From Urechis unicinctus (lineage: Eukaryota; Annelida; Polychaeta; Xenopneusta; Urechidae): a stretch of DNA of 64,000 bases. The stretch spans positions 17,518,913 to 17,582,912 of the forward strand of contig CM067350.1 in assembly GCA_034190875.2 (NCBI GenBank), in the 5' to 3' direction. The position numbers were made by a program, and so were the translations under genes. Every line of letters begins with the position of its first letter. The stretch's first letter is position 1. Positions 6,701 to 54,280 of the stretch are shown here, in pieces. Below the pieces are notes generated by a model, which worked only from the letters and a program-made list of their open reading frames with translations, did not search any database and was not told the DNA's origin.

Positions 6701-7812
6701 AATGCGATTTATGTGCTGATGTGATGGAAGCACACGTCATGCTTCGTTAGGTCACATGTTCTCTGCCTAACTGATAATATTCAGTAGCATTTGATATGGT
6801 GCATGGAATATTTAGCTGCTTGTGACACAAAATACACTTAATATTTACGCACTAATCTCGGTCAGACATTCAACCTCTCAACTTTAGACAATTCAAGAGC
6901 AGATAGCTGGTAAATTCAGCCCGGTTGAGCACGTTATTTTTATTCCCACCTTTAACTGACATTTGACATTCAATAACATCCTCATTTATTCTAAACGCTT
7001 AAGCACTTCTTGCAGATACGGATCTACACCATGAGACTGAATAGTAATGCATTAACATTGTGTAAGTTTGTCAATAGTGATATTGCTGTACACAATTACG
7101 CAATTAAGCTCAGTGAACGCGGGATTTATTATAATACGGTGAACACTACTCAGTGTGCGCTCGATTCGATTAGTCACATGAGCGTAGTGATAGCAATGTT
7201 ACATACATGCAACGTTTTGCCTTCGATATATGCGCGCTAGTCTTGGTTAGACATGCAAGCTTATCCTTAAGCAATACACGCAGGGGGTGATTAGTCTTGG
7301 AAATATATTCATCCCTTCGTTGCATACCATTTCAATTGGCACTTGTCCATATTATCGTTAATAATCACAAACGCGGTAGAAATTGAAAGAGGTAGGGGCG
7401 TTCTGTTTTGGACAATGAAATAGCAATACTTTGTTAATTTGCAGATTATGTAATACCCGATGCTCGATACTCAATTCGTCTAATTACGGTCCTTCCAGAA
7501 TCTCATATTTTGGATTGCTAATTACAAAGCGGTTGAACATTAATTGTGGGAATCACTTGAGGAGCATTTTTATTTCATGTAATGAATAATTGCGAATAGA
7601 ATAAAGTTGACCATGTATGACGCAAATATCACTCCCACTTATTCATGGCAGTGTGTATTGCTCTCTGACCGCTATCCAGACAATACATAGTACTTCAATA
7701 TCAAATATTTGCATTGCATAAGAGCTTGGATAGCATTGCATAAATAATTCAAAGCATAAGATTCCGTCAGTTAATGCGTATTAATATTTTAAACCCTTTC
7801 CACAAATGCATA

Positions 7813-13800: not shown

Positions 13801-14770
13801 TCACGCACTAATCTCGGTCAGACATTCAACCTCGTAACTTTAGACAATTCAAGAGCAGATAGCTGTAAATTCAGCCCGGTTGAGCACGTTATTTTCATTC
13901 CCACTTTCAACTTACATTTGACATTCAATAACATCCTCATTTATTCTAAACGCTTAAGCACTTCTTGCAGATACGGATCTACACCATAAGACTGAATAGT
14001 AATGCATTAACATTGTGTAAGTTTGTCAATAGTGATATTGCTGTACACAATTAAGCTCAGTGAACGCGGGATTTATTATAATACGGTGAACATTACTCGG
14101 TGTGCGCTCGATTAGATTAGTCACATGAGCGTAGTGATAGCAATGTTACATACATGCAACGTTTTGCCTTCAATATATGCGCGCTAGTCTCGGTCAGACA
14201 TGCAAGCTTACCCTTAAGCAATATACGCAGGGGGTGATTAGTCTTGGAAATATATTCATCCCTTCGTTGCATACCATTTCAATTGGCACTTGTCCATATT
14301 ATCGTTAATAATCGCGGTAGAAATTGAAAGAGGTAGGGGCGTTCTGTTTTGGACAATGAAATAGCAATACTTTGTTAATTTGCAGATTAGTCGATAATGG
14401 CATTTATGTAATACCCGATGCTCGATACTCAATTAGTCAAATTACGGTCCTTCCAGAATCTCATATTTTGGATTGCTAATTACAAAGCGGTTGAACATTA
14501 ATTGTGGGAATCACTTGAGGAGCATTTTTATTTCATGTAATGAATAATTGCTAATAGAATAAGGTTGACCGTGTATGACGCAAATATCAATCCCACTTAT
14601 TCATGGCAGTGCGTATTGCTCTCTGACCGCTATCCAGACAATACATACTACTTCAATATCAAATATTTGCATTGCATGAGAGCTTGGATAGCATTGCATA
14701 AATAATTCAAAGCATAAGATTCCGTCAGTTAATGCGTATTAATATTTTAAACCCTTTCCACAAATGCATA
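7813..14770. repeat. Tandem macro-repeat, copy 2 of 3
   Basis: This is the second copy of the array unit, 6958 bp long. It keeps the roughly 580-bp segment missing from copy 1 but has two private deletions. About 520 bp are lost at the junction near 12121-12130 (equivalent to 3722-4245 in copy 1). About 900 bp are lost near 12885 (equivalent to 5032-5928). Adding these back gives about 8.4 kb, the same full length reached by restoring the copy 1 deletions. No coding function is recognised. Confidence 0.93.
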
Positions 14771-17700
14771 GAAATTGTAAATATCTGTAAGTCTATTTGA
14801 TTTATTTCTATAATATTAGTTTTTTAATAACCCTGCAAGAGTACGATGAGTTAGCAATTCAAGGTCTGAAATAAAATGATTAATTCGCAGTTATGGATAT
14901 GTGCCTCTTGGTTGACAGCTACACTTAGCTTAGTTGCTTTATCACCTCAGCAATCATCAAATGTATGAAGGTCAAAACTTCTCTAATTCGCAGGAAGGAC
15001 AGCTTATAATAGTGGATTGTGGTTTTTTTTAACTAGACTTCCTTAATCTATTATGTAGGCTGGCTGGACATCCAAATCCTTAAATTTCCAACAATCATTG
15101 AAGAAGAAACAAGCAATTCACTAAGTTGTGAATCCCAAAGAAGTTTCTGAAATTGCCTTTTCTATGTAACGTGGATTACCAGTATTGACATAATCTCAAT
15201 TTCATGTTCTGGTTATGAGGTCTTTTATCTGCATTGCAGCGCGCTATATTTTCAGATTTGCTTGCCTGTCATCGGACTATTCGGTTCCAAGTAGCCGTTT
15301 TTCTATAACGACACACACATAGCATAAGCGATTAATTAATCAGAGCAGGATGAAATTTGTTATGAATCACCCCTTGCCTGTATAATACTGGTACAGTTTT
15401 ATTAATTCCGATCACAGCTATGCGGTTTTGTCCATCGTTCTATTTCTTTCAGGAGTGCATATAAAGTTAAGGAAGAATATAATTTACAAAAACGTACAAA
15501 GCTAACGCCATTTCGCTGAATAACAAAACACTTCGCAGCCTGGACAGCATATAAATCATCCCTCGACAAAGTTTTGATATGACAATAATTGCATGCGTAG
15601 TCCTGGTCAGCGGCAGAGAAAATAACTGCGTATGATATTGATATGATGTTCAGGAAGATATATATCTGCATGAAAGCAATGTTACAGTTGTGAGCCGGTC
15701 ATAAATTTTCCTTTCTGACGTACGGTATGTGCCACATTCTAGGATTTTTGTCTGGTATTTGAGGCAAACCTAATTGCTTTACTAATGCAAGTAAACGCAT
15801 TGTATAGTTGTTGCAAGTGCTCATAGGGATAGTGCAACCATGATATATGATATGTGGCTGGCATTGCGAGATCCCGAATTCCGTTATCAAAGCTATATCT
15901 TTTCTTGTCTGTGGTTTGAACTATGCTATTGTTATTGTGTTGATGAAATCGTCATTGAGCTGTGGTAGCATCATTGCACAATATGAATTACAATGTGAAC
16001 AAACTTTAATGTCTAGCTGCTGACAGCACAATATCGTATGCAGCATTATGTTTCCATCATGGCGACCACAATTGTCAAAACCATAATAAGCAATTGAATT
16101 CAGGCTATGTTTTTCATCGTATAGACCGCATTAATGGATACCTTAGATTGCCTGAGATTTTTACATTGCACACATTTATCAGTAAGCACACCACTTATAC
16201 CTCGGTCGATATAAATAAATGAAGTGTATTGACCAGATTCTGCTTGGGTCGGTTCGGCTCCATGTATCCAATTTAGGTTTTCTGCGAGTTCTTGTGATAT
16301 TCATCGTGTTTATATCTGGCCACCGCGGTAGCTAGTGGGCCAGGTAATAAGTTTCAATGACATTATTACCTAACAGAGTTACCGGTTGACAAGAGCAAAA
16401 TAAAGTATGCACGGATCTAAAGAACACGTCTTGGTTAGTGTCAATTTTATTCAATTGTTGCTTTAGCTTGATATATTGATTCGTTTTGCATTTGGACACG
16501 TTTTTCAGCAATCAAAAATTAACCTACTTTCATTAAACAGCATGCAAACTTTGATTCATTTGGTTCCGATATTTATGTTAATGAAATGTTTGTTTTTGAA
16601 TGGATGTGTCAATTAAGGCTAAGTTTAGTGATTATTCTGTCACTAAATAGTTTAAGTAAAACCGGCGAATACTTGCAGGCGTTTGAGTGTGCAGCTAAAC
16701 TTGGGGCTGTAATGATGACACTGAGTATCGTCTTGTGCACACATTTCAAACAATTGTTTACATGTGCATAGGAATAGAAATGTTTAGATCCGCATTGCTC
16801 GGCAGTGTATACCTTCGCAGTTCACCAATGATATTTTGTAAACATTTTATCATCTTTTTACGACTTACGGAAAATATGTTGCCGGCTTGTTAGTCAAGTG
16901 TTGTGTGTGAAAGATACCGTATTATGGCGCTTCCTAAATTTTAGATCATTCTTGTTTTAATTCCCTGAATAATCAATATTTCCACCACGAAAGTGCCACC
17001 CAAGAGCCTTTACATGTTAATTACAACCGTATCCGATCATTAACCCATTGTAAGGCATCAAAATTATTTTTTTGTGACAGTAGTGTGCACGGTTAATCAC
17101 AAAATCATTAACCATTAATTATCGTCATCATCAGCTGAAATCGTCTTAGAGTAACCATGAAAACAAAAATCTCCATTACCTTGAGTGATTAGGTAGTAAC
17201 AAATTTCCTTGATTGATTATTGCAAGCATTGTTCGATTTTTGTACGATATCATGGTGAGCATATGTTTTGCATCCCGTTTAAGCTGCTCATTTTAGACGA
17301 CGGTGCATCAACGGCTCATCCTTTCATGTCAACATATGGAGGAGGTGAAGCAGGACGTGTATGCAATACCAAAGTGTAATCCGGTTTGGTAACAAACACT
17401 TCGATGACACGCTTTACATAACAAGCAACATTGCTTCTCTTGGTATGTCACTGATACATTTATGAGACTTGCGGCCACTCACAGCAGACTATATCAGCAA
17501 GAAAGTCCATCGCGTCAAGACAAGCATGTTACCTATTGTAACTCGTTAAATCTTCCCCGCTTATATAATAAACCAGTTCAAGAAGTCATTTTTATTAAGC
17601 TTATTTGCGTTCTTGGGTATCCGATAACTCAGCAAATATTGCACTTGTTTTGTTGTGCTTTGTAATAACATGATTAAGTTACCCATTTACACTGCAAGAC

Positions 17701-20700
17701 ATTGCCTCATTACCATGGGCTTGATACAAATACTTCAATCAGATATATCTGGGCCATTCATGACGTCCGTTGATATTGAGATATTTGCACTGCATAAGTG
17801 TTTGGGCTGCATAAAATTAATAACTGATTACGTTAAGTTCTTGTTCACCATTAAATAACAGTCAGTTAAATGCATATTAAAATACATTATGGAGCCAAAT
17901 CCAAATATCTGCAAGGTAATTTAACTTATTTCATCGACTTTGATTATCTAATGGTTGAGTGGTTGTCCGTATTGCATTTACCCTGTTAGAGTATGAAAGG
18001 TTAACATTCAAAGTGTGAATTAATCAGACTTCTTAATTCTGAGTAACCGTTGTACCATAAAAACGCACTCACAGCGTAAGCGGTGAATTAATCGGGGTAC
18101 GTCAAGGGGTTTTATGAAGCACGTGTTTCAATGCCGATCCCCCATTGCCGGCATAGCATTGCATCATTCATGGTACCATTGTATGAAAATAAAAGACAAA
18201 TCAATTATAAAACTAGTCGAAGCTAATAATATTCTACTGAATAACAAAACACATCACATCCAAGCAGCATTTAAATCAGCCTTCCAAAATTCTGGATATT
18301 ACAAGCCTGTCTGTTAACCTAATTGCATTCACCTATCGTGGACCTCAGAACAACACCACGCAATTGAATAAATTTTGTTGCCTTAGGAAGCGGGCAGAGA
18401 AGATAGCGAGCACGATATTCATCTGATGTACCGGTAGATTAATTATCTCAAAGTACTGTAACAGTTGCGAGATAGCCAAAAACTCTCTTCGTCTTTTCTC
18501 AGATGCTGTATCGACCATATGCTTGGGTCTTCTGCGTGCAAATAGTATTTCTGGCAAAGTCAGTTGTTTGTCCAATACAAATCAGTTTTCGCAAGTGTTT
18601 AATGTGTTACAGTTCAGTGCATATATCGGTTGGGCATCCACGATATTTATTAAGCCAGGCATTGCTTTTACTATTGCTATTGTTTTTATGTGACTTGAAT
18701 TGAAGTAGCATCGTTGAAAATATATATTACAACATGAACAAATTGTACGGTCTAGCTGCGGAGAGTACAATATCGTAAGCTTCATTGCGTGTAACTCCAT
18801 CCCCCCGACCTCGATTGTCAAAACCATAATAAGCAATTGAAGTCAGGTTATGTTTTCGATGTTAAAATCCATATTAACGCATACCCTTGACTGCATGAGA
18901 TTATTATATTCAATGAGGACTTCAGTAAACAAACCACTTATACCTCGGTAGAAATTAACATATCAGTTGTATTAACCTTGTCCGTGTACCTAGGCAGATT
19001 ATGCTTGGGTCACTTGGGCTCCATGTATCCTATTGGAGTGATCAGCGAGCTCTGCCGAGATGCATCGAGTGTCACTTCGCGGAGCATGAATAATGAATTA
19101 AACTGTTTGCAAACTGTTTAATAATATCCCAGCATAAACATATTGACATATTATTCAATATCTAAATATGCCAAGAATATAATAGCAACATAAAGCATAG
19201 TCGTTCTCGCACGAAATAGCAGCTTCAATATTACATGAACTGCTCCTTGTTTGTAACCCTCAACAAGCACAAAACATGGTCACTCATATGTTTTGTGCAG
19301 CGCTTTGCCAATATAGCGAACGTGAGTCCTTTAATTTTAACAGCGCACACTGCCTCCACCAAACACTTGATAATATGGTTTTCAATTAAGCTATCACCTT
19401 TGTGTTCCATTAAATCACACTGCCATAATAAATGCAAGAACTTGCACGTTAACATACCGTGTGCTTACCCACAAATTGACGTCGATAACATAACTAATCC
19501 TCATACAGTCCATTCGTGATGTACAGCTTTGGTAGTCAAAGTCTGTGGAATGAAAGACGGAACGAATTCCGTATTACGAGGGCTATGACCCATTCCCTGC
19601 TACTATGCTTGAAGATAATTGGTCACGTTTATACCTCACAGTTATTATAACATTGGATCCCCACGGCAGGACGTTGTCATTAAAAAACAAATATTTGGCA
19701 ATTCACACATACATCACGTGACCACTAGTAATACCTCTTTGATAACATATCAAGCTACACAGCTGTTTGTATAGTAAATCGAGGCCATCGATCAGACTAG
19801 ATTTATCCCAGTACATTAGTTTGCGAGTTCATGTCTGGCCAGTTTTACCAGCTAGAAAAAAACATAATGCAGTATGGCATGATTATAGCAGCGTTGTGTG
19901 GGCAATGCATGCTAAAATAATGGCATTCATTTGCATATGAGACTTTTACTAGGGGAGAAGATAGCCAGTTAATTATGCGTTCTTGTGTAAGGCAAGCAAT
20001 AAGAAATCCACAGCTTTATCAGGATAATGCATCGTTCATAGTTTGCATAGATCTCACCCTGGGACCAAAAGAAATATATAGAGAAGAGAATAGTGAGAAC
20101 CGTTATTTAAAAACAGTATGTGATTTGCAAACTGAGTTGTATGAGGTGATATAAAGTCTCCATGCCACGGACTACTAAACAGATTACCAAATCAGGAAGT
20201 GTCTAGAATCGTCGATAGCATCGTCAATGGTACCCAATGATAGAATACGTATTATTGCGATGCATGAGATAAAACGAGAGGATTTTCAATTTGTATGTGG
20301 GAATATGGTATTGATTGAATTTATTCAGAGTAATAGTATTAACACTATGCGTAAACTGTTCTCGTTTTCTGCTCTTTCATACGACTATTCATAGGTTAAA
20401 TAGTCCTATCACGGTTCTGCTTCACGTCCTCTTTCAAGTTAGAGATTAGTATGTATCGTGATTACATGATGTTTATGATTTATCTGTTTTAACCGTTTAT
20501 CAAAACTGCTACCAAATCACTCAAGAAAGCTTTATATTGAGTAAGCTAATTAGTCGACTGATTCATGCTTTCTGTATTGTTTATCTCGCAGAATATCGAT
20601 AGTTAATCTATCGTGATCTTAACCCTATAAAGATTGCCCCTTTCTACTATTTCAAAGACCACGCTTGGTTAAAAAAAAATAATTACAAAGTCTTTGTTGA

Positions 20701-26880: not shown

Positions 26881-29330
26881 AACAACCATATCGTAGTCAC
26901 TCTGTGACATCATTTCATATGTCATATGAACGCGGCATTAGGAGAGGTGAAAGTTAGCGTTTATCTTTTTGTTCTTATTGATTTTAACAAAAAGGCGTTC
27001 CCTGCACGCCTTGGGCGTAGACTCTTTAAAGCAGATGCAATATCAGATTATTGCTTGTGCGCATACATTATAGCTCTATTATCAAAGAACCCTATTAAGT
27101 GCCTTAAAGCGAATACCTCTAGGTCATTTATACGACGACGATATAGACTATTTCATCCATAGAGAACAAGATGCCATCTCTCCTAATACGTGTCTCTCTA
27201 CCTGGCAGTTTTCCACAGCCTGTGGCATTTCGCCATAATGGTCCTAGGTTTACACCACTAACGTCCAATAGCATTCACCGTCAGGTATGGTATGGTTCTG
27301 GTGTAACTTGATTAAATAAGGATAAGAATGACAATGCTGTGTTAATGAGTAGGATAAGTAAAGCACCTTTCATATGCTATGATTATCTTTTCAATTTAAT
27401 CCACGTAACCATGCAAAAAAACACAGCACGGTGACATACCTTACAATGTGCAGCACATCCTATGATATTGAGAACTGGTCTAAATGTCGCAAAAACTATT
27501 GTATGCATAACAAAATACTCACGTTCATGTTCAAATGTCATTTTAATGTCAATTAATTATTTTGTTCCAGTGGCGGGAAATGGCAATATCGCGATGATTT
27601 CATGAAGTCTGTCGAAGTCGAAACATGGTATCAGAAATACATTTTGCGACAGGTTACTGACACCCATCTGTGTATAGAATAACAGACTCAAGCATTTTTC
27701 AATATAAGACACTATTTACTTTGTGACTCCGATACACCGGACCACTGACGGCAATAGATAATGGTTGCGAACGGAATGATTCTTAGCTTGTCGTTATGAG
27801 AGGAAAATATTATTTATTATCGACTTGAACGGAATGAAACACGTTCGTCAAACGTAACAGTATTAGTCACTGTACACTGAAAGGTCAAGTTAAGTTATAT
27901 AATCATGCAGACGTCAAAATTCGCAGATGCATTGCGCGCAAAATGGACAATTTCTATGCCGCTACCCGTTGAATATAGCACTATAATTTACAATCAATAG
28001 CCCTTTTGTTTTAACCGGCCATCAATATCGTTTTTATTGATCAGATGTACATATTGAGACGACAGCTATTACTGCATTGAGCACTAAATCGTGGAATATG
28101 AAATGCTTAAAGAAAGGAAATAGGTAACGTTTTGCATCAACGGAATTCTCAGATATCCGTATATAGCTATTCGTGGGTTGCTGTTGGTCTAAACGCCAAT
28201 CATGACAACTCACATCATAAGCAATATATCTGGCTCATAGATACTCTTGACTATTCGGTCTAAGATATTTTAAAAAAACATGATTAATCCATATACTACA
28301 GACTCTGTTTAAAAACATTCACCTTTGTCCCGTGACAGTGTAGTGTCTTGGTGTTTATCTGTTGCACTATGTTATGCATAAAATATATCTATTCATAGCA
28401 ATTCAGCAAACTGTAAGCGGCGCATAATATGCGTGTTAAATAAAGGGTGTGTGCCTAAGATTTCCATGCTCGTTTGGATTATATTAATACATTACAACAG
28501 CTTGTATCCAGCACAATGCATGCCATACGTCTACTAACGCGGATTAATGATAAAGGAAGGTGTGCGTAAAAACCACTTTATGCAATCATACAACCATGTA
28601 CTCTATATCCTTCCTATAGGTGAAAACATTGAACATAAACGAAACTAACAGTCGAGTCGGTTAGCTATTTTTATTTGACCAAATCTTGAAATAGATCAAT
28701 CTTGTATAGCCTTATAACATGTAGCTGCCTATGACAAGTAGCATAAAAATGTTCATAAGAGAAGGAACACATTACGCATCCACATATATTTATATCGATT
28801 CGCACAATTGTTGAATTTGTCACTTTGCGCCGTTATCTGAGGCAATTATTCCTCGCAAACTGCCTGTAGTTGTTTCTGGCAAAACTATAAGGTGATTTTT
28901 TGCAAACTTTTATAACCATCCACAATATCTGCATTAAGTAATTGCTTGGTTGTTTTCATGTTATCATGATATCAATGTGCGCATTGGAATCTGCATCAGT
29001 GTAGATATAGCGCTAGTGCAATAAAGACTGGCGAAGCGTTTATCGATGTTTATAGGAACATTTCATTAATGTACAATACAATGATGCTATTAGAATTTGA
29101 AAACCGTGAGTAGTATTGTCCATGAATGATTTTTTTTGGTCCGAGGCCTCGTTTTATTTGTCGGTCAGCGCATAAACCCAAAAGCTCTTGTCTACGTATA
29201 TCCTTTTGATATCCCCTAAGATGACGACGCCTAAGCAATAACCGATTGTTATTCAAACTAACAACATGAGCTTTGCGGTTTAAGGGCATGAAATTGCCTG
29301 GTTTTCCGATTAGTATCCTGCTGCACGCAG
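26880..29330 (+). repeat. Duplicated 2.4-kb block, copy 1 (partner 52050-54280)
   Basis: A collinear series of matches runs through this block and 52050-54280. They include ctgtgacatcatttcatatg/ctgtgacaccatttcatatg, ctttaaagcagatgc/ccttaaagcagatac, gtccaatagcattcaccgtca/gttcaatagcattacccgtca, taaatgtcgcaa, aatataagacac/aatataagacat, and acgtctactaacgcg. The last are attcctcgcaaactg/atccctcgcaaactg and tgacgacgcctaagcaataaccga. Both copies are in the same orientation and clearly diverged. No coding frame is conserved between them. Confidence 0.85.
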
Positions 29331-34470: not shown

Positions 34471-35255
34471 TGGCATCGTAATATAATATTTCTCAGTAGG
34501 AATTAACTGGTGATGCTTAATCGCATTAAGGCAAAACTAGGTTTCACGACCTAACAATGGTTGGTAAACTGGGATGGACATCTGTTATAAGCTTGTTCGC
34601 AGAAAATGGTAAGGTGGATTACATCATCCATTGACCCAGTGCAACCGCCATATAATAATCAGGTGTCAATAATTAAGTAAATGATATCAACCATCGTTAT
34701 TATAAAGGGTGAATGCTCCGCTAAGGAGGTGTGATTGTTAAAAAAATGTTTTTCTTTTAGTGAGAAAACTGATATTGGATAGTGAAGGGCGTGGAGAGAA
34801 TATAAAGATATATACATTCTTCTCCCTTATTCATGTAACATATCATATCATTTAGATATCGGGCAAGAAAGTCATACATACAGCATTAACGCATCTTCCA
34901 CCAGCCACCCTCACATACACAACACAATCGTCCACAGAAACACCATTGAATTATCCCGTCAAAATATCCGCACATTTCGTCCTAGACATCATAAATATCG
35001 GCTTACCCCTCATAAAAATATCCATTTCTATTACTTACATCTAGTATCCGTGGTGCTACTACCTTCAAAACGATGCTTGTACTATGCGCATTTGGTTATC
35101 GATTACATTTTTCAGACGCCATACTTTTGATTGGATAAATAAAAATATTTGAGATATCAAAGGTGGTTTTCTATATTGCTTACTAACTTCTATAGCCCTG
35201 TGTACATGCAGCAGTATGTATCCTAGTACTAACACACAAAAAACACATGACAACA
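34471..35255. other. Gene-free stretch before the retroelement
   Basis: Non-coding AT-rich sequence with nothing recognisable. It passes into (TA)n. Confidence 0.5.
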
Positions 35256-35326
35256 TATATATATATATGTATCCTAGTACTATATATATATATATATATA
35301 AATACACATGACACATATATATATAC

Positions 35327-35370
<44 letters not shown>

Positions 35371-35514
35371 GTATATATATATATAACATATGTATATATA
35401 TTTATATACATATATATAATATACAAAATACATATGTACATATGTATAGAATATATATATATATATATAAATAAATGTATAAATATACATGAATCATATA
35501 TATATATATATATA
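35256..35514. repeat. Complex (TA)n tract abutting the retroelement's left end
   Basis: Alternating TA is interrupted by a short duplicated phrase (tgtatcctagtac at 35217-35229 and 35269-35281) and acatgacacat/acatgacaacat units. The tract runs directly into the first base of the retroelement at 35515. Long Tyr-Ile frames across it are artefacts. Confidence 0.93.
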
Positions 35515-35703
35515 GTGAAGGCTTGCGCCTTATCGTGGTTGCCTTTCTTAGCGGTTTTCCATATCTCGCGCGCCAAGTTGGTAAGTCGCTTCACTCCCGC
35601 TAGGGGCGTTAGCGACCATCCAATCACAGGCGTTGCACCAGGCACGCGGCCTGTTCTCTTCGCGCATCGCCCTTTGGAAAACTTTGCAGCAAAAAGTTCT
35701 CAT
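35515..35703 (+). repeat. Split direct repeat A1 (left terminus)
   Basis: This 189-bp repeat matches A2 (41640-41824) with no substitutions, only a 3-nt and a 1-nt indel (ggttgcctttctt versus ggttgttctt; cgcccttt versus cgccttt). It starts gtgaagg at the (TA)n boundary. A small inverted repeat sits at the very terminus: aaggc (35518-35522), loop ttgc, gcctt (35527-35531). It presumably holds the 5' transcript start region. Promoter elements are not identifiable by eye. Confidence 0.95.
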
Positions 35704-35866: not shown

Positions 35867-36445
35867 ATGGCTGTTGCCATCATCGGCCATTCGTACGTTC
35901 GCCGTTTGAGTGATTATGTGGCGAACAATGGAGTGCAAACGCACAATCTTCGTTTCAATGACGAAGAAGTTTTGTTTCATGGGTTTGGAGGTGCTAAACT
36001 TCGTGGCCCAAAATCAATAATACCCCATTTACATGGCTGGTTAGGGTCCCGGGTTTGGAAGGTTGTGTTCCTTCAGTTAGGAAGTAATGACCTGTGCAAT
36101 CAGTCATATCCACCCGAGGAGGTTGCGGGAGATTTGTTGGCCATTGCCAAGTTCATCATCAATTGCTATCATGTCTCAACAGTTGTTATTGGCCAGGTCC
36201 ACTATAGAATTACCTGTGTCAAAGGTTTTAATGACCGAGTTCTTGAAGCAAACAAGCACCTCCGTTTCAAAATCAATGACTACCCAGGAAACTCGATTCA
36301 GTTTGCTTCTCTGCGAGGTTTGGCCCACCCTTACAAGTCTCAATTCTCGAGCGATGGCGTCCACTTCAATAACTTTGGTAACAAGAAACTGTTCAATGGT
36401 ATAAGAGGTGCAATTCTCCGTGCAATCAAACCAAGGGAATTGTAG
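35867..36445 (+). CDS. SGNH/GDSL-type hydrolase ORF of the retroelement
   Basis: This is an intact ORF of 192 codons starting at ATG 35867. The four SGNH blocks are visible in order. GHSYVRRL holds the nucleophile Ser9. FHGFGGAKL supplies the block II glycine (G41/G42). LQLGSNDL gives block III with Asn74. SSDGVHFNNFG gives the block V Asp163-x-x-His166 pair. The length is close to a minimal single-domain SGNH fold; there is no signal peptide or membrane segment. Family members are esterases or lipases. SGNH domains are known as accessory ORFs in some Ngaro elements and in some LINEs, but their role in retrotransposition is not established and the substrate is unknown. It lies 163 bp after A1 and upstream of gag, and is followed by an AATAAA and a 16-A run (36524-36542). 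It is the only one of the element's genes with an uninterrupted frame. Confidence 0.9.
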   Translation: MAVAIIGHSYVRRLSDYVANNGVQTHNLRFNDEEVLFHGFGGAKLRGPKSIIPHLHGWLGSRVWKVVFLQLGSNDLCNQSYPPEEVAGDLLAIAKFIINCYHVSTVVIGQVHYRITCVKGFNDRVLEANKHLRFKINDYPGNSIQFASLRGLAHPYKSQFSSDGVHFNNFGNKKLFNGIRGAILRAIKPREL

Positions 36446-37170
36446 TCACTGCAAGTTATGCCCCCCCCCCCTTTTCATTCCCCATGGTAATGGTGCACCT
36501 GTTTATAATTTTGATGCAGTCTTAATAAAAAAAAAAAAAAAATTGTTTGTTTGTTTGCACTGCTAATGTTTTTCGCCAGTGCTGTCATGTGTTACAGTTT
36601 GATAGCCTTGCCATTGGGCACCGCAATTCCTGGCACATGTTCAGATGGGCTAAGCAGACAGTTCAGTTGGTAGTCGGAGAGAAATATGTGCAGTTGTGTC
36701 ATAACACATTGCAAGATCATTTCCCTCATTAAAAAATTTATTATGGTCAATGATGTTTGTCTCGGTCATTTGCCATTACAAGCCCCTCTTTGGCTTGATT
36801 GCAAAGTTTGGGTTGGCATTTGCCTTTGTATTCGTAAATATCTGACCTAGTTTTTTTGTGTGCTTATGCTGTTTTCTTTAGCTGGCATAGCACCATTTAT
36901 ACTGTCTTGCTTTGTTGTTGTATTGTTTGGTTTAGACCATTATTGGTCTACAGTACAGTGCATTTAGGCGACCAGTGCGGTCTTGTGTTTCAGTTGTATA
37001 GCCTTGCTACTAATGTAAATCAGTTTGTGGCATATGCGCAGATGGGCAAAGTTGTCAGTAGCTTGGTTGTCATTTATCGTTATGGGGTTGTGGCATACTG
37101 AGTCACAGTACACTCAGATTCTTTTGTACTGTTCAGTTTCATTCAAAACTTCGTCTTGTTTGGTTTGGGC
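36446..37170 (+). other. SGNH-gag intergenic region with C11, AATAAA-A16 and an internal duplication
   Basis: It contains a run of 11 C (36461-36471) and an AATAAA merging into 16 A (36524-36542). It also holds an imperfect direct duplication: 36574-36675 matches 36969-37075, sharing ccagtgc-gtc, tgtgtt-cagtt, atagccttgc and cagatgggc. A perfect inverted repeat lies between the two copies: tagacca, loop ttat, tggtcta (36933-36950). No coding frame is evident. The AATAAA-A16 could be the fossil end of a processed transcript that brought in the SGNH ORF, or simply a homopolymer. Confidence 0.7.
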
Positions 37171-38213
37171 ATGTATGTTCGCAGAATGCCACCAACACGG
37201 AGGAACAGACGGGGACGTTCTGCAAGCGCAGTAGACCCACCTGATGGCCCATCTACTTCTTCTGGCACCGGAGCTGATGTCGCAGCAGCCGCCCCCTTCC
37301 CAGCTTTTCCCCGGATGCCTCGGTCACCTGCAGCAGAGTTCCAGCTGGACCAGGAAACCCTCATCGATGGCATCTATACTAGGATGCGCCGCGATGGTCT
37401 TCTCCCATCATTCCCTACGCCTGTGGTTTCGCAACCACAACCAGATCCTACGCCGCCAATTAATCAGCAAGAACCAGAAGTGGTTAACCAGGCATTGGCG
37501 TCAATATTAGGTTCAGGTGAGTTGCAGGACACTGAGCCTCAGGCCCCAACCAAAAACCCTGTTAGACTCGCCGCTCCATTGGGTGCGCACATCCCATTGC
37601 TGACTAAGCAACTAATATGGGAAGGGCGTTTTGTTCACCTGCAGGAGCTTGTCAATCCCATCCCCAAAAAACCCCAAGATGGTAAAGACAAACCCAAGCA
37701 ATTGCTCTCAATTGGGGAATGGGCCGAAGCATTTGAGATATTTACATCTATTGCATGTGAACAAGACCCTCAACTGGCTGGGGGCCTGCTGAAATATATG
37801 GCCACAGTCAAAAAAATGGCTAAACTTACGGGGCAGAGGCGTGGCGCCACTATGATGATAATTTTCGGTGGGCAAAGCAATTTGACACTAGCCTAACATG
37901 GGGTCATGTTGACCTCATGCTGTATACAGAGGCTTCACACCTCGCATTACAATATGCCCCAGCCAGGCCACTCCTCTCAAAACCTTTTAGTGCAGGGCGT
38001 GTGGGACAACACCAGCAGCCCTTTCGTCCAGGCACTTGCTGGGCCTACCAGCGATTTGGTCAATGCACCAACAAGCAGTGCCGCTTTCAAAACACCCATT
38101 GCTGTTACAAGTGTCAAGGGCCCCACAAAACATCAGCCTGTCAGGGTAACGGTCAATCCCGAATTGCCTCACAGTCTGCAAAAAAAAGAGGTGGTCACTC
38201 CAGTAAAAATTAA
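37171..38213 (+). CDS. Gag-like nucleocapsid protein, zinc-finger C-terminus (frameshifted)
   Basis: The N-terminal part reads in one frame from ATG 37171: a basic start (MYVRRM), then a Pro/Ala/Ser-rich region. An alternative start is ATG 37186. Near 37824-37830 the frame must change by -1, equal to loss of one base. The continuation reads WRHYDDNFRWAKQFD and then a zinc-binding tail. Its residues are C-x8-C-x4-C-x5-H followed by the knuckle C-x2-C-x3-H-x4-C (38037-38141). This YD-x2-FR plus two-module tail is the usual layout of Gag-like proteins in DIRS-order elements, where it is thought to bind the element's RNA. The 7-A run at 37810-37816 cannot be the shift site, because a stop (37821-37823) follows in the second frame. 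The protein ends at 38213 and overlaps pol. Confidence 0.82.
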
Positions 38214-39763
38214 ACAATTGGAGCAGTTCCTGTCCGGGTATCATGCATCCACTTTAAACTACATTTTACAGGGTTTTCGATTTGGTTTCAGCATTCAATA
38301 CCAAGGCCCATTGCAAAATCAATTGTCAAAAAATCACAAAAGTGTTCAGCAATTTCCACAAGTGGTGCAAAATATGATACAAAAGGAGCTTCAGCTCGGC
38401 AGGATTTCGGGGCCCTATGATTCTCCTCCTTTCCCAAACTTTGTGGTTTCCCCTTTAGGCGCGTTGTACCAAAAAAGAAGTTAACAAATTTAGGCTTATT
38501 CATGACCTTTCGGAACCGCCATTTTCTTCAGTGAATTATTTCATCGACCCCAAAGACAGTTCAGTCAAATATGAAACTCTTGATGATGTCATTCAATTAG
38601 TTCAATCGTTTGGTTCAGGCTGCACATTGGCAAAATGCGACATCGAAGAAGCTTTCCGCATTATACCAGTAAGGCCTGAAGAAAGACACCTGCTGGGTTT
38701 CCAATTTAAGGAAAAAATCTATTTTGACAAATGCTTGCCAATGGGATGCCGCATGTCTTGTAGCATTTTTGAAGCCTTCAGCTCTGCCTTACAATGGGCA
38801 GCCTATAACAAACTCAATGTCGCTGGTCTGAGCCACATACTAGATGACTTCATCTTTGTCGGCCCTCAAAATTCCAATAAAACAGCAAAAGACCTCAATA
38901 GTTTCCTTGCCATGTGCAAAAATTGCGGTATTCCCATCAAACAGGAAAAAACTGTCCCTCCCTGCACAAAATTAACTGCTCATGGCATTGAGCTCGATTC
39001 GTTAGCAATGCAGGCTAGATTACCTATGGACAAGGTGCAAAAGTGTGTCGCCCTCCTTACTCAATTCAGAACAAGGAAAAAGGTCACGCTAAAGGAATTA
39101 CAATCCTTGGTAGGGGTTCTTAACTTCGCTTGTCGAGTGATTCAACCAGGTCGGGCCTTCCTTCGTAGGATAATTGACCTGACAGTAAAGGCAAGCAAAC
39201 CTCATCACAAAATAAGGCTCAATTCCCAGTCAAGAGCAGACATGCAAGCGTGGTTAGATTTCCTTTCTGTTTATAATGGGATCTCCTTGTTCCTTGAAGA
39301 ATCCTGGACTCGTTCAGAGGACCTCAAACTCTTCTCTGATGCATCTGGTTCGCTGGGTTTTGCCGCAGTATGCGGAACACATTGGTTTGCTGGAAAATGG
39401 CCAACCTCCTGGGACAAATATCACATAACTCTTAAGGAACTGTTCCCAATAGTAGTCAGTATTGAAATTTGGGGAGATTGTCTCTCACGTAAAAAGATTC
39501 TTTTTAAAACCGACAATACTGCGGTCGTTGCTATAATAAACAAACAAACTTCCAAAGACCCAGTCATAATGATTTTGGTGCGTCGTCTGGTGGTTGTTGC
39601 CCTCAAATTCAACATAATGTTCAAAGCTCAGCATGTTCCTGGTTTTCAAAACGTTGTGCCTGACAAATTGTCCCGTTTCAATTTCCAGGAAGCCAAAAGA
39701 ATTGCTCCTTGGCTGGATCCACATCCCACTCTAATTCCCAGGCACCTGGTCTCCCTTCACTGA
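37954..39763 (+). CDS. Reverse transcriptase-RNase H polyprotein of the Ngaro element (frameshifted)
   Basis: The N-terminal part is open in a frame overlapping gag (open from 37897; first ATG 37954). It carries the region just before the fingers (GYHAS, GRISGPYDSPPFPNF, VSPLGAL). A net +1 shift at about 38465-38476, next to a 6-A run, moves to the frame that ends at 39763. Downstream motifs, numbered from codon 38531, are motif A AKCDIEEAF (D37), motif B LPMGCRMSC (69-77), motif C ILDDF (D105, D106) and KQEKT (137-141). RNase H has its full acidic set: D270 in LFSDAS, E303 in LKEL, D328 in KTDNT and D378 in PDKLSR. Motif B and the LDD box are of the DIRS/Ngaro type, not gypsy or LINE. The enzyme would make cDNA from the element RNA. 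All catalytic acids are present; the frame break is the only defect seen. Confidence 0.94.
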
Positions 39764-40723
39764 GGCAACAAGCCGCTAAGCTCCTTTCGGAATCCTTGGC
39801 TCCTTCCTCAAGGCTAGTTTACCGCCGTGCAGTAGTTAAATATGCTAGTTTCGTAGATTCAGTCCACTCATCTCGCTCTTTCTTTCCAGTGTCAATTGAT
39901 TTTCTGATCACTTTTATCACTTACTTACATTCTCAAGGATTTGCTTCCTCTTCCATACTTACGTATTCTACTGCTGTTTGCTTCTTCAACAAGATGCTGG
40001 GGTTCAAAGATCATTCATCTTCATTCATTGTCAAAAAATTATTGAGCGGTGTACAACGGGCAGGTATTGCAAAACCACAACGTAGCCCTATACACCTATC
40101 TCTCCTTCATACCCTAGTAGACTCCATAGCAAAGTCTGGCCTTTCCAACTTTAATATCTTGCTATTCCAAAGTATGTTCCTTCTGGCTTTTCATGCTTTT
40201 CTCAGAATTGGGGAAATCACCATTCGAAATCAGCACATCACTTCGCAATGCGTGCAACTTCATGACTGCAGTTTTACTTTCTCCTCTGTTCCGCCAGGCA
40301 ATACACCTACAGGTGTAGAAATAACACTGCGCTATTTTAAAGGAAATACCTCACGACAGCCCTTTGTTATTCGCATCAACTCCTCAACAGTGTCTCGTTA
40401 TTGTGTGGTGTCAAAACTACAGCAATATACATCCCTTCGCGGAACAACTCCGGGACGCTTTTTTTTGCTACCCTTGTGGCATTCCAGTTTCACGTAGTGC
40501 GTTTAGCAATCAGCTTAAAGCTACTCTTCGTCAGGCAAACATCAGGGACGCGCATATTAAACCACATTCCTTCCGCTTGGGAGCCGCTACCTCAGCTTGT
40601 GCACAAGGCGTCTCTGACCAGGACATTCAAAAACTAGGTCGGTGGAAGTCCGATGCATACAAGCGATACATCCGCATTCCACATTTTCAGGCGGTCACTA
40701 GCGATCCCCCATCCTCAATCTAA
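39664..40723 (+). CDS. Tyrosine recombinase of the Ngaro element (one frameshift in an 8-T run)
   Basis: The frame opens at 39664 and overlaps the end of pol by 100 nt in the -1 frame. There is no ATG near the N-terminus (a TTG is at 39709; the first in-frame ATG is well inside the domain). Translation would therefore need ribosomal frameshifting or reinitiation. The N-terminal half resembles the helical core-binding part. The catalytic residues are present: Arg in FHAFLRIGEI (codon 40204), His and Arg in PHSFRLGAAT (40565 and 40574), and Tyr in the YKRYIRIP box (40667) after LGRW. The frame breaks in the T8 run at 40459-40466. Seven T would join the two halves exactly, so this is a one-base insertion or a consensus error. 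The enzyme would insert a circular DNA copy by strand exchange, without target duplication. Confidence 0.93.
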
Positions 40724-41285
40724 ATCACTTTTAAGTGGTATGTTCATTTCATCTTAATAGAGGTTTTTCTTTGTTAGCAACACGGTCCAGGCATCAGTTG
40801 TAGCCTGGTGGCTAGCTGACCACTGGATTGTAGAGCTATCAAGTTTGCCAATAAAACACCATAAAATAGCCACAGTTGTAGCCTGGTGGCTAGCTGGGGC
40901 TTAATACTCTAACATTTTGTAACTGCCATAACAGAATTCAGTAATAAAGGCATGATCCACGTCTCAGTTGTAGCCTGGTGGCTAGCTGAGGAATCATTTC
41001 CTTAACATAGTGTTTTAGATGGTCTGTTTCGGCAGTTGTAGCCTGGTGGCTAACTGTTGACTGACTAAAGAGGCTCAGTGATATATTCCTCCTGCAACTC
41101 CACACTACTACCTCAGTTAGCGTCAGTTTTTGTAATCAGTTCACCATTCACATCTGTGTGTCATGCTCTCTGATATTGTCTTGTAAAATCCAGATATGGA
41201 TTGTTACATTATCGTCATTGCTATTAGTCTATTGTACATTGGATACTTTGGGTGGGGGAAGGCGAGCCTGGCTTGCCTTGTGCGA
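40724..41285 (+). other. 3' non-coding region of the retroelement with hairpin array
   Basis: Between the recombinase stop and the B1 repeat lies non-coding sequence. It holds four copies of a hairpin motif (40795-41056, listed separately). An imperfect 21-bp palindrome, aaggcgagcc t ggcttgcctt (41259-41279), sits just before B1. It has no coding frame. Confidence 0.8.
40795..41056 (+). repeat. Four dispersed copies of a 24-nt hairpin motif
   Basis: Copies lie at 40795-40818, 40873-40896, 40965-40988 and 41033-41056, all in sense orientation, with unrelated spacers (start-to-start 78, 92 and 68). Each can fold as stem cagtt/agctg, a 2-nt gt bulge on the 5' side, stem agcc/ggct and loop tggt. 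Copies 1-3 are identical. Copy 4 differs at a single base (agctg to aactg), which converts a G.U pair to A-U and so keeps the stem. The spacers do not match each other. A retained RNA structure is the simplest reading, for example a binding site for the element's Gag, reverse transcriptase or an export factor. The function is inference. Confidence 0.9.
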
Positions 41286-41606
41286 GCCGTATTCTGGCCG
41301 TATTCCCCCCCTTGCTGCCAACTCTTGTATTATATTGTATGAATTGTATAATTTACCATGATATGCTAAATATATATGTATAATGTTAGCACATGCTATT
41401 GTATATAATTTTAGTCTGTATTTTGATTTTAAATCTGTAATAAAACGTCACTCAATTCATGAGTGACAATATACAACAACATGATTTCTGTTTGATGCAA
41501 TAACATTGTCAGCAACAGAGCAGCAGTATCCAACGTAGCTAGCATTATTTACTCGGTATTCTCATACAACAATTATTGTTATCCTGGCAGCAAGCCATGA
41601 GCATAA
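41286..41606 (+). repeat. Split direct repeat B1
   Basis: This repeat matches B2 (41878-42188) with only a handful of substitutions and small indels (for example ataattttagtctg versus ataatgttagtctg, ccaacgtag versus ccaatgtag, ttctcatacaacaatt versus ttcttaacaatt). It contains AATAAA at 41439-41444, followed by the perfect hairpin gtcactca-attca-tgagtgac at 41447-41467. It ends gagcataa. Confidence 0.93.
41439..41467 (+). terminator. Poly(A) signal plus hairpin in B1
   Basis: AATAAA (41439-41444) is followed two bases later by an 8-bp perfect stem with a 5-nt loop (41447-41454 / 41460-41467). The same pair occurs in B2. The placement after the genes and in the B repeat fits transcript 3' end formation, though no cleavage site can be proved from sequence. 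Confidence 0.55.
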
Positions 41607-41639: not shown

Positions 41640-41824
41640 GTGAAGGCTTGCGCCTTATCGTGGTTGTTCTTAGCGGTTTTCCATATCTCGCGCGCCAAGT
41701 TGGTAAGTCGCTTCACTCCCGCTAGGGGCGTTAGCGACCATCCAATCACAGGCGTTGCACCAGGCACGCGGCCTGTTCTCTTCGCGCATCGCCTTTGGAA
41801 AACTTTGCAGCAAAAAGTTCTCAT
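41640..41824 (+). repeat. Split direct repeat A2
   Basis: This is the internal copy of A (185 bp), without substitutions relative to A1 and shorter by two small indels. It lies 33 bp after B1 and 53 bp before B2, giving the B1-A2-B2 block that in Ngaro-type elements serves as the template for rebuilding full-length ends. Frames across it (for example 41616-41969) are not genes. Confidence 0.95.
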
Positions 41825-41877: not shown

Positions 41878-42188
41878 GCCGTATTCTGGCCCCCACCTTG
41901 CTGCCAACTCTTGTATTATATTGTATGAATTGTATAATTTACCATGATATGCTAAATATATATGTATAATGTTAGCACATGCTATTGTATATAATGTTAG
42001 TCTGTATTTTGATTTTAAATCTGTAATAAAACGTCACTCAATTCATGAGTGACAATATACAACAACATGATTTCTGTTTGATGCAATAACATTGTCAGCA
42101 ACAGAGCAGCAGTATCCAATGTAGCTAGCATTATTTACTCGGTATTCTTAACAATTATTGTTATCCTGGCAGCAAGCCATGAGCATAA
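41878..42188 (+). repeat. Split direct repeat B2 (right terminus)
   Basis: This copy of B ends at gagcataa, after which the sequence passes into TA-rich flanking DNA. It starts with the small inverted repeat gggcc-gtattct-ggccc (41876-41892), which is less perfect in B1. It carries AATAAA at 42025-42030 and the same 8-bp hairpin at 42033-42053. Confidence 0.94.
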
Positions 42189-42503
42189 AGGCAAATATAT
42201 ATGCATATATATAGGTATATATATTTATACTTAAATAATTATTTATATATCAATGTTAAAAGGTGTATATCAACATATGCATATATATAGGCATATAAAT
42301 ATATGTATTTGCACGAATATACTGAATTATATTTATATATATACATATATATCTATATGTATAAACATATAAATATAATCATACATTTATATGTATGAAT
42401 GTATATATATATAAATACACATATGTATATACATATACATTTATGTATTAACCTGAATATATATCTATAGGTATATATGTATTATAAATATGTATACATA
42501 CTT

Positions 42504-42541
<38 letters not shown>

Positions 42542-42686
42542 TATATATATAAATTTATGTATTACATATGTATATATTTATATACATATATAAATGTATA
42601 TATACGGATACATATATATATATATATAAAGATATACATAAATATAGATATACATATATTTATATATATACATATATATATATATT

Positions 42687-42728
<42 letters not shown>

Positions 42729-42731
42729 ATA

Positions 42732-42784
<53 letters not shown>

Positions 42785-42790
42785 CATTTT
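42189..42790. repeat. Complex (TA)n tract right of the retroelement
   Basis: About 600 bp of TA with interspersed tatgta/atacat phrases, ending in long pure TA. With the tract at 35256-35514 it brackets the element, so insertion occurred within or at the edge of TA-rich DNA. Tyr-Ile-rich frames are artefacts. Confidence 0.94.
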
Positions 42791-43819
42791 TATGCCGAAT
42801 ATTAATCAATGGAAGCCGCACTTACTTAAACATCAATACGTGGGTTATTCGTTAAGCTGCTGCATTGTTTAAACCATGCATTGACCATGGAACCCGTCTC
42901 TCGGGGTGCATAATTGCTTACTGGAGGGCCATCCTGGAAGCATACATATAAGTCAAATGGGCAATTTTGCATGTCGTAAGGCCAAGGAACGCGTCGTTAA
43001 GGGGAGTTGCTCGCCCAATCGTTAACAAACATGTAGCACATATGCCAATGTGACACTGTAAATAGAATCCCTGCAGAGTGTGTCTTTCATAAAGTTTCTG
43101 CTATGCGTGAGATGATGCTGATAATTCCATAAAGCTCAATGAAAAATAAATATTTCAGTATTTTGTCTGGCTGAGTTCGTCCTATGAACGAGGTGTAAAT
43201 TTTCACGCCACATCACAATCAATGACATCCCCAGGCTAAACAAACTCGTGCTATGTGTTCATATCCTGGAGCAGAGATCAACTATGCAAAGCGTAATATT
43301 GTATATATGCCTACGCTGTGCATCAAAACAGAGAGAACAGTGCCGCGTTAACACCGTTTGCTCTATCCAGACATGAATGATACGATAATACATTCAAAGA
43401 GTTTATAGATTCGCTCAGAGCACTTACTCAAGCCCTACACCCGAGGAAATATGTGATGACGCCACCTGTTAACCGAAGCATTTGGCCAGAGCGTCTTATC
43501 ATAGCGTTTTTTAAAACCACCGCTTAATTTGGACCCTTGGTCGCCTAGACAAATCAGATGACTCCATATCCTAATCAGACGCCGAGCCTCGGGGAATAGA
43601 ATCATGCGCTATTGTTGATTTCATGGTATCGTCGCCTGATGACCGGGGTGTATTTTGTGTCATTTCATAATCACCACACAGATTTGCGTAGCTATAAACT
43701 ATTTGCTCGAGACCGCAACGTGTCTCTAACAGGCCAACCAATGTCAATGTCTACACCAGGTCAGTTCCCTCGCTCTGGACAGTCATTACAACCACCATCT
43801 ACAGCGCGGCCGGTTCAGT
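42791..43819. other. Gene-free stretch
   Basis: I recognise nothing definite. A frame of 104 codons at 43612-43926 has a Ser/Pro/Gln-rich middle but no known domain. Its 3' part falls in the duplicated block shared with 34070-34200, where the frame is not conserved. Confidence 0.5.
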
Positions 43820-52049: not shown

Positions 52050-54280
52050 AGTCGTTCTGTGACACCATTTCATATGAACACGGCATTTGGTGAGATGACC
52101 TGTAGGCTGTGGGTGTGGACTCCTTAAAGCAGATACGTTATCGGCTGATTGGTTTTAAGCATATGTTATCTATATTAACAACAAACCCTACTAAGTGACT
52201 TAAAAAGATCAACTCTTTGTCATTTATGCAGCACCGATATAGAATAGTGAACCCATAGTGAACAAGATACCGTCTCATCTTATACATGTCTAATATCTAC
52301 TTCGCCTGATTGTTCTCAGCATCCTGCAATTACATGAGGGTTTAACGAATGACGTTCAATAGCATTACCCGTCAACTTGGTGTAACTTAACTCCAGATAA
52401 AGCCGCATTGGTGCTATCACGATAAGAATGACAGTATATTGGCAATGGGTAATGAGAAAAGCAAACTTCTCATTCTGGGGATAATCTTTTTAATTTTATC
52501 CGCGTGAGCAAGCAACATAATTAAAACACGGTGATAAACTAAGTAAGCATTTGATATATGTAAGGTAATACCAAATGTGCAGCAGAGCACTTGTCTAAAT
52601 GTCGCAATTGAACGAATGAATGCATTAATCAGCTATTGAATGAATGAATGAATGAATAACAAAATACTCGCTTACATAAGTATCAATATCCATTACTTCA
52701 CATTGGGTGGGTGGAGGGGGGGGGGTTACTCGTTTCGGGAAATGACATTATCGCTAAGTCACCTACCCATCGTACCAATCAAGCCGACAGCTCACTATTA
52801 CACATCAGTGAAGTGAACAACAATCTCAAGTATGCATCAATATAAGACATTATTGACTTTGCAAAGCTGATGCACAGGACCACCAACGGTAATATTTAAA
52901 GACTGCTTATGGGATAATTCTTACCTTGTCGAGAGGGATATCTAATTGATCATCGAATGAATTGTATGCAAACTTGCTGCTAAATAAAAGAACTTAATTT
53001 ACAATTGATAGCCATTTGCAACTGGCGCCTCAGTCGTGTTAATTGATCTGATATGAATATTGAGCATTGAGCAGTGAATCGTGGAGTATGAAATAGGCAA
53101 GTAGTATATTTTTGAAAAGCGTTTTTTTTCATCAACAGGCCTCTTTAATATCCATATATAGATACTGCTGATGTTGGTGAAAATGGCCAATTATGACACG
53201 GCACCGTTCAAAATTGCTAGTCAAATTCTAGTTTTTGGTTACTCGGTCAAAGATATGGTAGAAATACAAGATTCATCTACATACTCAAAACTCCATTTGT
53301 TGTTTTGTTAATTTGTTTCATTATACTATGCATGAAACCCAAACCTAGATAGCAATGCAGTAAAGAGCAGGCAGCATAAATTATGCGTGTAAAATAAAGG
53401 GTTTGGCGTGACATTTCTTTGCTCGTTGGGATTGTATGGATGCAAAACGACAACCTGTACCCAAAACATGCCAACACGTCTACTAACGCGAATTATTGAT
53501 AAAGAATGATATGTGTTAAATCCATTTTAATCAATTATTCAACCATGAACTCTATATCCTTCATTTAGGTGAACGCAATGATCATTCATCCAGCCAAAAT
53601 TACATCCGGCTATCTATATTGAATTGACCAAATATCGAAATAGAAAAATCTTGTTTAGCCTTATAAAATGAAGTTGCCTGTGACATATAATAAAGCAACT
53701 AAAATAGCACCTAACACATCTACACATAGTTATATCAATTCATGCAATGCATTCATCGCATAGCGCCATTCGTTGAGGTAATTATCCCTCGCAAACTGTC
53801 TGGTAAAAATATGTGGTGAGTTTTTGTTAACGTTGATTACCCTCAGCGATTGCTGCTTTAAGTTATCGTTTGATTTGTCTTCCTGTTATCATGATGCCAC
53901 AATGCTCATGGAACTCTGTGTCATTGTAGATATCGCGCTAGTGCAATAACAAGTGGTGAAACGTTAGCGATGTTTTCAGGAGCTGCCATCATCTCATTTA
54001 CGTGCCATAGAACAATGCTACTAGAGTTTGAAAACCGGTACAAGTATAGCTCGGGAATGATTTGTGCATAGTCTCGTTTGTGTTCCGGTCTGAGGATAGA
54101 CTCGAGTATATTGATATTTGCTGGTATTCCCTAATATGACGACGCCTAAGCAATAACCGAGAATTATTCTAGCTGGCGATGTGAGATGTGCGGTTTCAGG
54201 ACGTGGTATTGCCTGGTTATTACGTTTACGCCTGCAGTAAATAAATTGAACATTCACGAGAGTAACTGAAAATGACATGT
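52050..54280 (+). repeat. Duplicated 2.3-kb block, copy 2 (partner 26880-29330)
   Basis: Collinear with 26880-29330; the matching strings are given there. Private features of this copy are a (GAAT)n run at about 52637-52660 and a G-rich run at 52705-52725. It starts shortly after the array-derived piece at 51652-51902. Confidence 0.85.
52705..52725 (+). repeat. G-rich run with G-quadruplex potential
   Basis: ggg, t, ggg, tgga, then ten G: enough G-tracts for a four-tract quadruplex. The partner block has no such run at the matching place (near 27560-27585), so it arose after the duplication. Confidence 0.75.

Follow-up and report, generated by a model that had tools for sequence, protein, structure and literature searches.

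A multi-copy bulged RNA hairpin between the recombinase gene and the terminal repeats of Ngaro-type retroelements in Urechis unicinctus

Why should a retroelement carry several copies of one short hairpin, set in unrelated sequence, between its recombinase gene and its terminal repeats? The question is raised by a 64,000-nt stretch of the Urechis unicinctus genome (the window), for which an earlier note had described four sense-strand copies of a 24-nt hairpin at 40795-41056, with spacers of 44-68 nt. The four copies were found as described, between the stop of the tyrosine recombinase (YR) at 40723 and the repeat B1, and their spacers measure 54, 68 and 44 nt. No other site within three mismatches of the 24-mer occurs in the 64,000-nt window, and at the same threshold each of 100 dinucleotide-preserving shuffles of the window gave 0 matches. 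Copies 1-3 are identical, and the variant seen in copy 4 also terminates many other arrays.

40795..40818, plus strand: hairpin copy 1, with an outer stem at about 40784-40833
40873..40896, plus strand: hairpin copy 2, with the outer stem UAGCC-A / G-GGCU
40965..40988, plus strand: hairpin copy 3, with an extended outer stem
41033..41056, plus strand: hairpin copy 4, with one G to A change that turns U.G into U-A

The minimum-energy fold is CAGU - UG bulge - UAGCC - UGGU - GGCUA - GCUG, and the same shape was obtained when the first and fourth 24-mers were folded alone and when all four copies were folded with 10 nt of flank. The shared stem, bulge, stem and UGGU loop that had been proposed therefore stand, as does the claim that the substitution in copy 4 preserves the structure (U.G to U-A); the bulge, however, is UG, the GT register given for it being slightly off. 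The UG register is supported by columns 7/20, which go from U-A to C-G in the CAGAC/GUCUG lineage described below. The stem also extends outward, in that the copy-specific flanks pair, though they differ among the four copies. The true matching of left with right flanks was the best of the 24 permutations (1 in 24 being the smallest value that this test can return), and pairing as good was reached by 0 of 1000 mononucleotide shuffles for flanks of 15 or 20 nt, 2 of 1000 for 10 nt, 6 of 1000 for 8 or 6 nt and 19 of 1000 for 4 nt. At the gathering score, Rfam 15 had 0 matches in the window, and eight weak matches fell in AT repeats, in the B repeats and on the minus strand of the YR region. The iron-responsive element, which has a CAGUGN loop over a C bulge, was rejected as an identity for the hairpin, which has a UGGU loop and a 2-nt bulge instead.

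The element that carries the array is a copy of a Ngaro-type (tyrosine recombinase) retroelement, as the earlier note had supposed. Its parts are as follows.

35515..35703, plus strand: A1, left part of the split direct repeats, 97.9% identical to A2
35867..36445, plus strand: GDSL/SGNH hydrolase-like ORF upstream of gag (Pfam Lipase_GDSL, E 1.2e-07)
37156..38213, plus strand: gag-like region with interrupted frames and, in its C-terminal part, a Cys/His cluster (37824-38213)
38459..39763, plus strand: reverse transcriptase and RNase H (Pfam RVT_1, E 7.6e-10; RT_RNaseH, E 0.00045, a match below the curated Pfam cut-off)
39664..40723, plus strand: YR, in two frames in the window copy (Phage_integrase, E 1.5e-08, at 40364-40720)
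41305..41606, plus strand: B1, 97.7% identical to B2
41640..41824, plus strand: A2, direct-repeat partner of A1
41890..42188, plus strand: B2, direct-repeat partner of B1

The split direct repeats thus run in the order A1 ... B1 A2 B2, with the inner repeats after the YR, and both a reverse transcriptase (RVT_1) and a tyrosine recombinase (Phage_integrase) were matched, the YR motifs HSFR and YIR being readable in an element whose reading frames are in several cases interrupted. Six ORF stretches scanned against Pfam gave no match to a methyltransferase domain, which is a trait of DIRS elements, and the RT-RNase H and YR frames abut. The gag-like region matched no Pfam domain, zinc fingers included, even at E 5; it also recurs in a related element (L044).

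Some features around the array are recorded here in their own right. AT-rich microsatellite stretches flank the element on both sides (35250-35513 and 42200-42800), which suggests that it inserted into such a repeat. Between the GDSL ORF and gag lies a diverged repeat pair (36576-36662 and 36972-37059), both copies of which hold CAGTT..TAGCCTTGC; the two fold no better than their shuffles do (z 0.70 and 0.01), and the pair, considered as an array member, was for that reason not counted. At or just before the start of B1, a larger GC-rich inverted stretch (41240-41320; GGGTGGGG..CCCCACC or GGATGCC..GGCATCC) was noted by eye, and by eye also at the same place in L044, L057, L051, L056 and L066; it is possibly a second structured element. 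Elsewhere in the window, positions 1-21200 contain long direct duplications that are 94-98% identical (e.g., 5929-12123 with 12885-19052) and in which no gene was identified, and 28395-29106 and 53349-54037 are two copies of one repeat, 72% identical.

How widespread is the hairpin? The first 20 nt of the motif, with at most two mismatches, occur at 2558 sites on one strand and 1056 on the other of the 1.19-Gb assembly, counts that take in satellite DNA; the reversed control gave 1 and 3. Starting from the head of the list of exact matches, we sampled 20 regions, or 20 of about 27 clusters listed; since each was chosen by an exact match, every region necessarily holds one good hairpin or more. 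In close copies of the window element, the number of hairpins reaches 12 (L037). Their arrays consist of a two-hairpin, 174-nt unit (about 78 + 96 nt), which several of them repeat in tandem, and then steps of 92 and 68 nt, and the window copy is a short version with the same 92- and 68-nt steps. Among 122 cores from the window and these 20 exact-match-chosen loci, each position is conserved in 105 to 122 of the 122, and the loosest is the site of the G.U to A-U change. The 14-mer of the upper hairpin occurs in the sense direction only, and in the 3′ array only, in the three elements L038, L041 and L044. One internally deleted copy (L033) has its 5′ part joined to the last two hairpins and B1-A2-B2. 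It was considered as the representative of a non-autonomous family and rejected; its junction had one full-length match among 40 scored candidates (111 were found), so that it looks like a lone deletion and is uninformative on any requirement in cis. Outside the host genome, relatives were found neither in viral contigs, by searches with the RT, the hairpin pattern and YR alignment, nor in genome contigs, by pattern and YR alignment, in collections without other animal genomes.

Within the same genome, the motif is present in further families as well as in further copies. A second family (L039, L044 and L050) shares the same 22-nt core. L039 and L044 are 35-69% identical to the window element over RT pieces and 44-59% over YR pieces, and the YR of L050 is lower, at 38-40%; the three carry 10, 12 and 4 hairpins, respectively, for the most part 50-55 nt apart, and the outermost pair of the 24-mer is mostly U-A in place of C-G. 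We also sampled elements blind to the hairpin, by a pattern for the YR active region that excludes the window's family; it found 124 genome places (control 0), and from 100 places listed we opened 17, picked to differ; a different YR pattern yielded 3 more. Three of the 17 (L058, L059 and L067) form a third family, with 6, 14 and 16 hairpins of the same class (class 1), the main run 44-47 nt apart. Compared with the YR of the window, theirs are 54-58% identical in the larger pieces, and 78-84% across 23-38 C-terminal residues. In the last two hairpins of this family, the lower stems CGU/ACG and GGU/ACC replace AGU/GCU. Such lower-stem variants occur at 194 genome places (control 0). Outside C10:31.6-32.2 Mb and C68, 49 of them were listed, comprising 28 with two-sided compensated changes, most of which are copies of the same family-3 hairpins, 14 with G.U and 7 with broken pairs; among the 27 distinct sequences listed, 9 are compensated, 11 have G.U and 7 have a broken pair. 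An AGU/GCU to CGU/GCG variant at C16 lies in a family-2-like context. Across families, the compensating changes in the lower stem are A-U to C-G or G-C, and C-G to U-A.

Might such arrays be functionless products of neutral tandem duplication, by slippage and template switching? The 174-nt unit is indeed tandemly amplified in several copies, and the 3′UTR tandem repeats of plant Ogre elements are described, in the available part of PMC7004042, as seeding satellites. Satellite DNA has also arisen from an array of the present kind: a 401-nt stretch (L080, C10:31611330-31611730) consists of seven units of about 55 nt, each a family-2 type hairpin and a spacer, and among the matches listed the satellite also occupies C10 31.600-32.167 Mb and contig C68. 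It may account for part of the strand imbalance of 2558 versus 1056. This satellite is, however, a natural neutral control, in which core and spacer drift alike (84.7 versus 81.5% identity), and the arrays behave otherwise. Neutral duplication would carry the spacers along with the cores. In the window, as the earlier note had supposed in saying that the repeats are kept while the spacers diverge, the cores are 97.7% identical and the spacers 44.8%, which is the level of shuffled spacers (43.4%). Spacers are likewise far less conserved than cores in other elements, with identities of 95.7 versus 67.6% in L044, 95.7 versus 64.2% in L039, 98.9 versus 57.9% in L038, 94.5 versus 52.8% in L031, 90.0 versus 66.1% in L059 and 88.3 versus 69.9% in L067. 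Moreover, the same core is found across families whose YR identity is near 50%. We therefore give neutral duplication almost no credence.

Hairpins of the same shape and different sequence occur in other lineages. Two elements of YR clade I, L057 and L065, have two hairpins each of the form CAGU - NN - CAGAC - AGGU/AAGG - GUCUG - RCUG; the YR of L057 is 50% identical to that of the window over the aligned piece, and both hairpin copies of L065 are partly decayed. Relative to class 1, the upper stem has changed from UAGCC/GGCUA to CAGAC/GUCUG (U-A to C-G and C-G to A-U). A strict pattern for this type matched 28 genome places (control 0), four of which were examined: L057, and L077-L079, which have three hairpins each with varying bulges, loops and outer stems, one or two of the three in L079 being partly decayed. 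More distant are the elements of YR clade II, whose YRs are 36% (L051) and 33% (L054) identical to that of the window. In 6 of the 17 sampled YR loci (L051, L053, L054, L056, L063 and L064), clade-II hairpins of the form CAGY-loop-RCUG, below which 1-3 nt bulge out on the 5′ side, lie at the same place. The 10 kb of sense 3′ regions from 20 loci hold 14 of these hairpins, against 2 on the reverse strand; the background is 2 in 114 kb of sequence from the window, and 200 shuffles gave a mean of 0.15 and a maximum of 2. Looser variants were seen by eye in L052, L055 and L062, and in 3 of the 17 loci (L060, L061 and L066) no such hairpin was found, L061 looking truncated after the YR. For most of the distant elements, about 1.35 kb at and downstream of the YR motif was covered, most clade-II loci being seen for 1351 nt, and B1/B2-like repeats (57 nt, 98% identical) were found in L051 alone. 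L051, L054 and L056 have their own tandem or near-tandem repeats after the YR, with one bulged hairpin per repeat. One copy in L054, CAGU-GU-CAGC-UUCU-GCUG-ACUG, resembles a bridge between the hairpin classes, which would suggest that the classes have a common origin.

Is it the RNA, and its pairing, that is maintained? We took 58 distinct 24-mers from the two types (45 + 13), choosing them on sequence similarity and without regard to pairing. Standard pairs fill 484 of their 522 pair cells, so that substitutions in the arms mostly keep the pairing. There are 54 G.U cells (41 of them in the pair under the bulge) against 14 A.C cells, and this excess indicates that it is the sense strand that pairs, which bears out the selection on the sense RNA that the earlier note had suggested. 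Further statistics were drawn from 97 distinct class-1 hairpins out of 158, or 51 after merging equal stems, with shuffles and slid controls and no tree model. Pairing in the lower stem is 93.3% (90.7% in the set of 51), against a maximum of 88.9% (88.7%) in shuffles that ignore the tree. For the three outer pairs it is 65.6% (63.4%), against shuffled means of 45% and maxima of 52.6 and 56.2%, again with the tree ignored, and when right arms were re-dealt within a family, the observed outer pairing was reached in 3 of 500 trials for family 1, in 4 for family 2 and in 11 for family 3. Because the upper stem of class 1 is nearly invariant, the case for upper pairing rests on the CAGAC lineage, where the change was perhaps one event of two pairs.

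These observations also bear on the possibility that the repeats are double-stranded DNA sites, bound by the YR as accessory sites or by a chromatin protein, the hairpin being a by-product of their dyad. Tyrosine recombinases bind inverted repeats, and TAGCC-TGGT-GGCTA is a dyad. A DNA site is, however, weakened as an explanation by the covariation. Of the 58 distinct 24-mers, 55 have U.G or U-A as the pair below the bulge, outer stems of unrelated sequence pair, and the array lies in the sense direction before B1, with the 14-mer nowhere else in the three elements noted above. We regard DNA binding as very improbable. The array consists of a sense RNA hairpin that is selected for both sequence and pairing, and that is present in multiple copies at one position of the element in three families and, in shape alone, in others. 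None of the three outcomes that the earlier note had named as refuting it was obtained: the motif is present in relatives, changes in the arms mostly keep the pairing, and motifs are far better kept than spacers.

What might such an array do? Its probable role is to dock a protein that acts on the element RNA. We propose, with about even confidence and on the strength of comparative sequence data, that it works in cis as a multivalent RNA element with the element's own Gag as its most likely ligand, through which the genomic RNA would be selected or packaged. Each 24-nt hairpin would be one putative protein-binding site of the common form CAGU - 2-nt bulge - YAGMC - NGGU - GKCUR - RCUG, set on a freely varying outer stem, and several hairpins per element would give higher avidity. 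The ligand would be an RNA-binding protein encoded by the element. Gag comes first among the candidates, most likely with its Cys/His-rich C-terminus, since the Cys/His cluster there recurs in families 1 and 2. The array would then mark the genomic RNA as the one to be packaged and reverse transcribed, and packaging or template selection would be the most economical use of the array.

A host RNA-binding protein, acting in export, localisation, translation or stability, might be bound instead. One candidate would be the Smaug/SAMD4 SAM-domain family, through which the array would steer the transcript in germ cells or embryos, and many copies per transcript would suit an additive regulator. According to the part of PMC4053848 available to us, Smaug recognises a CNGG-N0-4 loop whatever the stem. 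Class 1 conforms to CNGGN0-4 with its loop C-UGG-UG, which UAGC/GCUA closes, and most copies of the CAGAC lineage have C-AGG-U. A reader indifferent to the stem, however, has no need of the upper-stem sequence that is fixed in three families, and neither the CAGAC copies with AAGG, ATGT or ACGT loops nor the clade-II loops UUUC, UUCU, GCAC and GUAU fit CNGG. In addition, the hairpin sequence tracks the element lineage, and so varies, within one host, which favours a ligand encoded by the element over a shared host factor. We consider a host factor unlikely, though a serious candidate.

The reverse transcriptase itself, rather than Gag, might recognise the array or start from it. Some LINE reverse transcriptases read a 3′ stem-loop, and the array lies 3′ of the coding region, ahead of the terminal repeats. 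The array lies inside the RNA, however, rather than at its end, and the number of hairpins differs widely from one copy of the element to another. The present observations fit the reverse transcriptase and Gag alike, and on balance we think a reverse transcriptase site improbable.

Returning to Gag, we tentatively extend the proposal to a lineage-specific RNA recognition code, which we hold somewhat less probable than its alternative. Each family's own multivalent array would co-evolve with its Gag, making packaging specific in cis, and the classes of the code would be UAGCC/UGGU (class 1), the CAGAC/AGGU lineage and clade-II CAGY/RCUG. Copy number would be tuned by tandem amplification, and arrays would occasionally escape as satellite DNA.

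No RNA hairpin array between the YR and B1 is described in the available text of the Ngaro/DIRS literature searched, which included few subscription papers: the accessible parts of PMC9210276, PMC4157794, PMC8547959 and PMC6681497 contain no such array, and that of PMC3783388 no occurrence of the terms sought. If true, the recognition code would give tyrosine recombinase retrotransposons their first proposed packaging signal, within the literature searched. A short, conserved, multi-copy hairpin should offer a direct handle, since it can be synthesized, mutated at single pairs and used as bait, and it should also serve as an RNA signature for annotating such elements. The satellite illustrates how an RNA array with a function becomes satellite DNA when selection is lifted. 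To our knowledge, the way in which tyrosine recombinase retrotransposons pick out their own RNA and copy it has not been worked out.

Several known systems resemble the array in part. The operator or packaging hairpins of RNA phages (MS2 type) mark the phage RNA for the coat protein; like the present hairpins, they are short, have a tetraloop and a bulge on the 5′ side, are specific in sequence and shape, and exist in family-specific variants, whereas here 2-17 tandem copies lie in a retrotransposon and are known from sequence alone. The tandem 3′ hairpins of alfalfa mosaic virus and the ilarviruses bind coat protein. They too stand in a row at the 3′ side of an RNA, in keeping with the multivalent protein binding proposed here, but the hairpin and the spacing are different, and the likeness is one of form. 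The Smaug recognition element, as given in the part of PMC4053848 at hand, is like class 1 in its CNGGN0-4 loop; the array differs in its fixed upper stem, its conserved bulge and its clade-II loops. Judging from the available portions of PMC9210276, PMC4157794 and PMC8547959, the Ngaro superfamily has the same RT-RNase H, YR and A1 ... B1 A2 B2 organisation, and the difference is the hairpin array between the YR and B1, which goes unmentioned in the Ngaro text searched; the GDSL/SGNH ORF lies ahead of gag here, and after the YR in the amphibian Ngaro elements covered by the accessible text of PMC9210276. Finally, plant Ogre/Tat LTR retrotransposons also have 3′-side tandem repeats that give rise to satellites, repeats that the portion of PMC7004042 consulted calls hypervariable in sequence and length. 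Unlike those repeats, the array has a 22-nt core that is common to families and that forms a hairpin with compensating changes.
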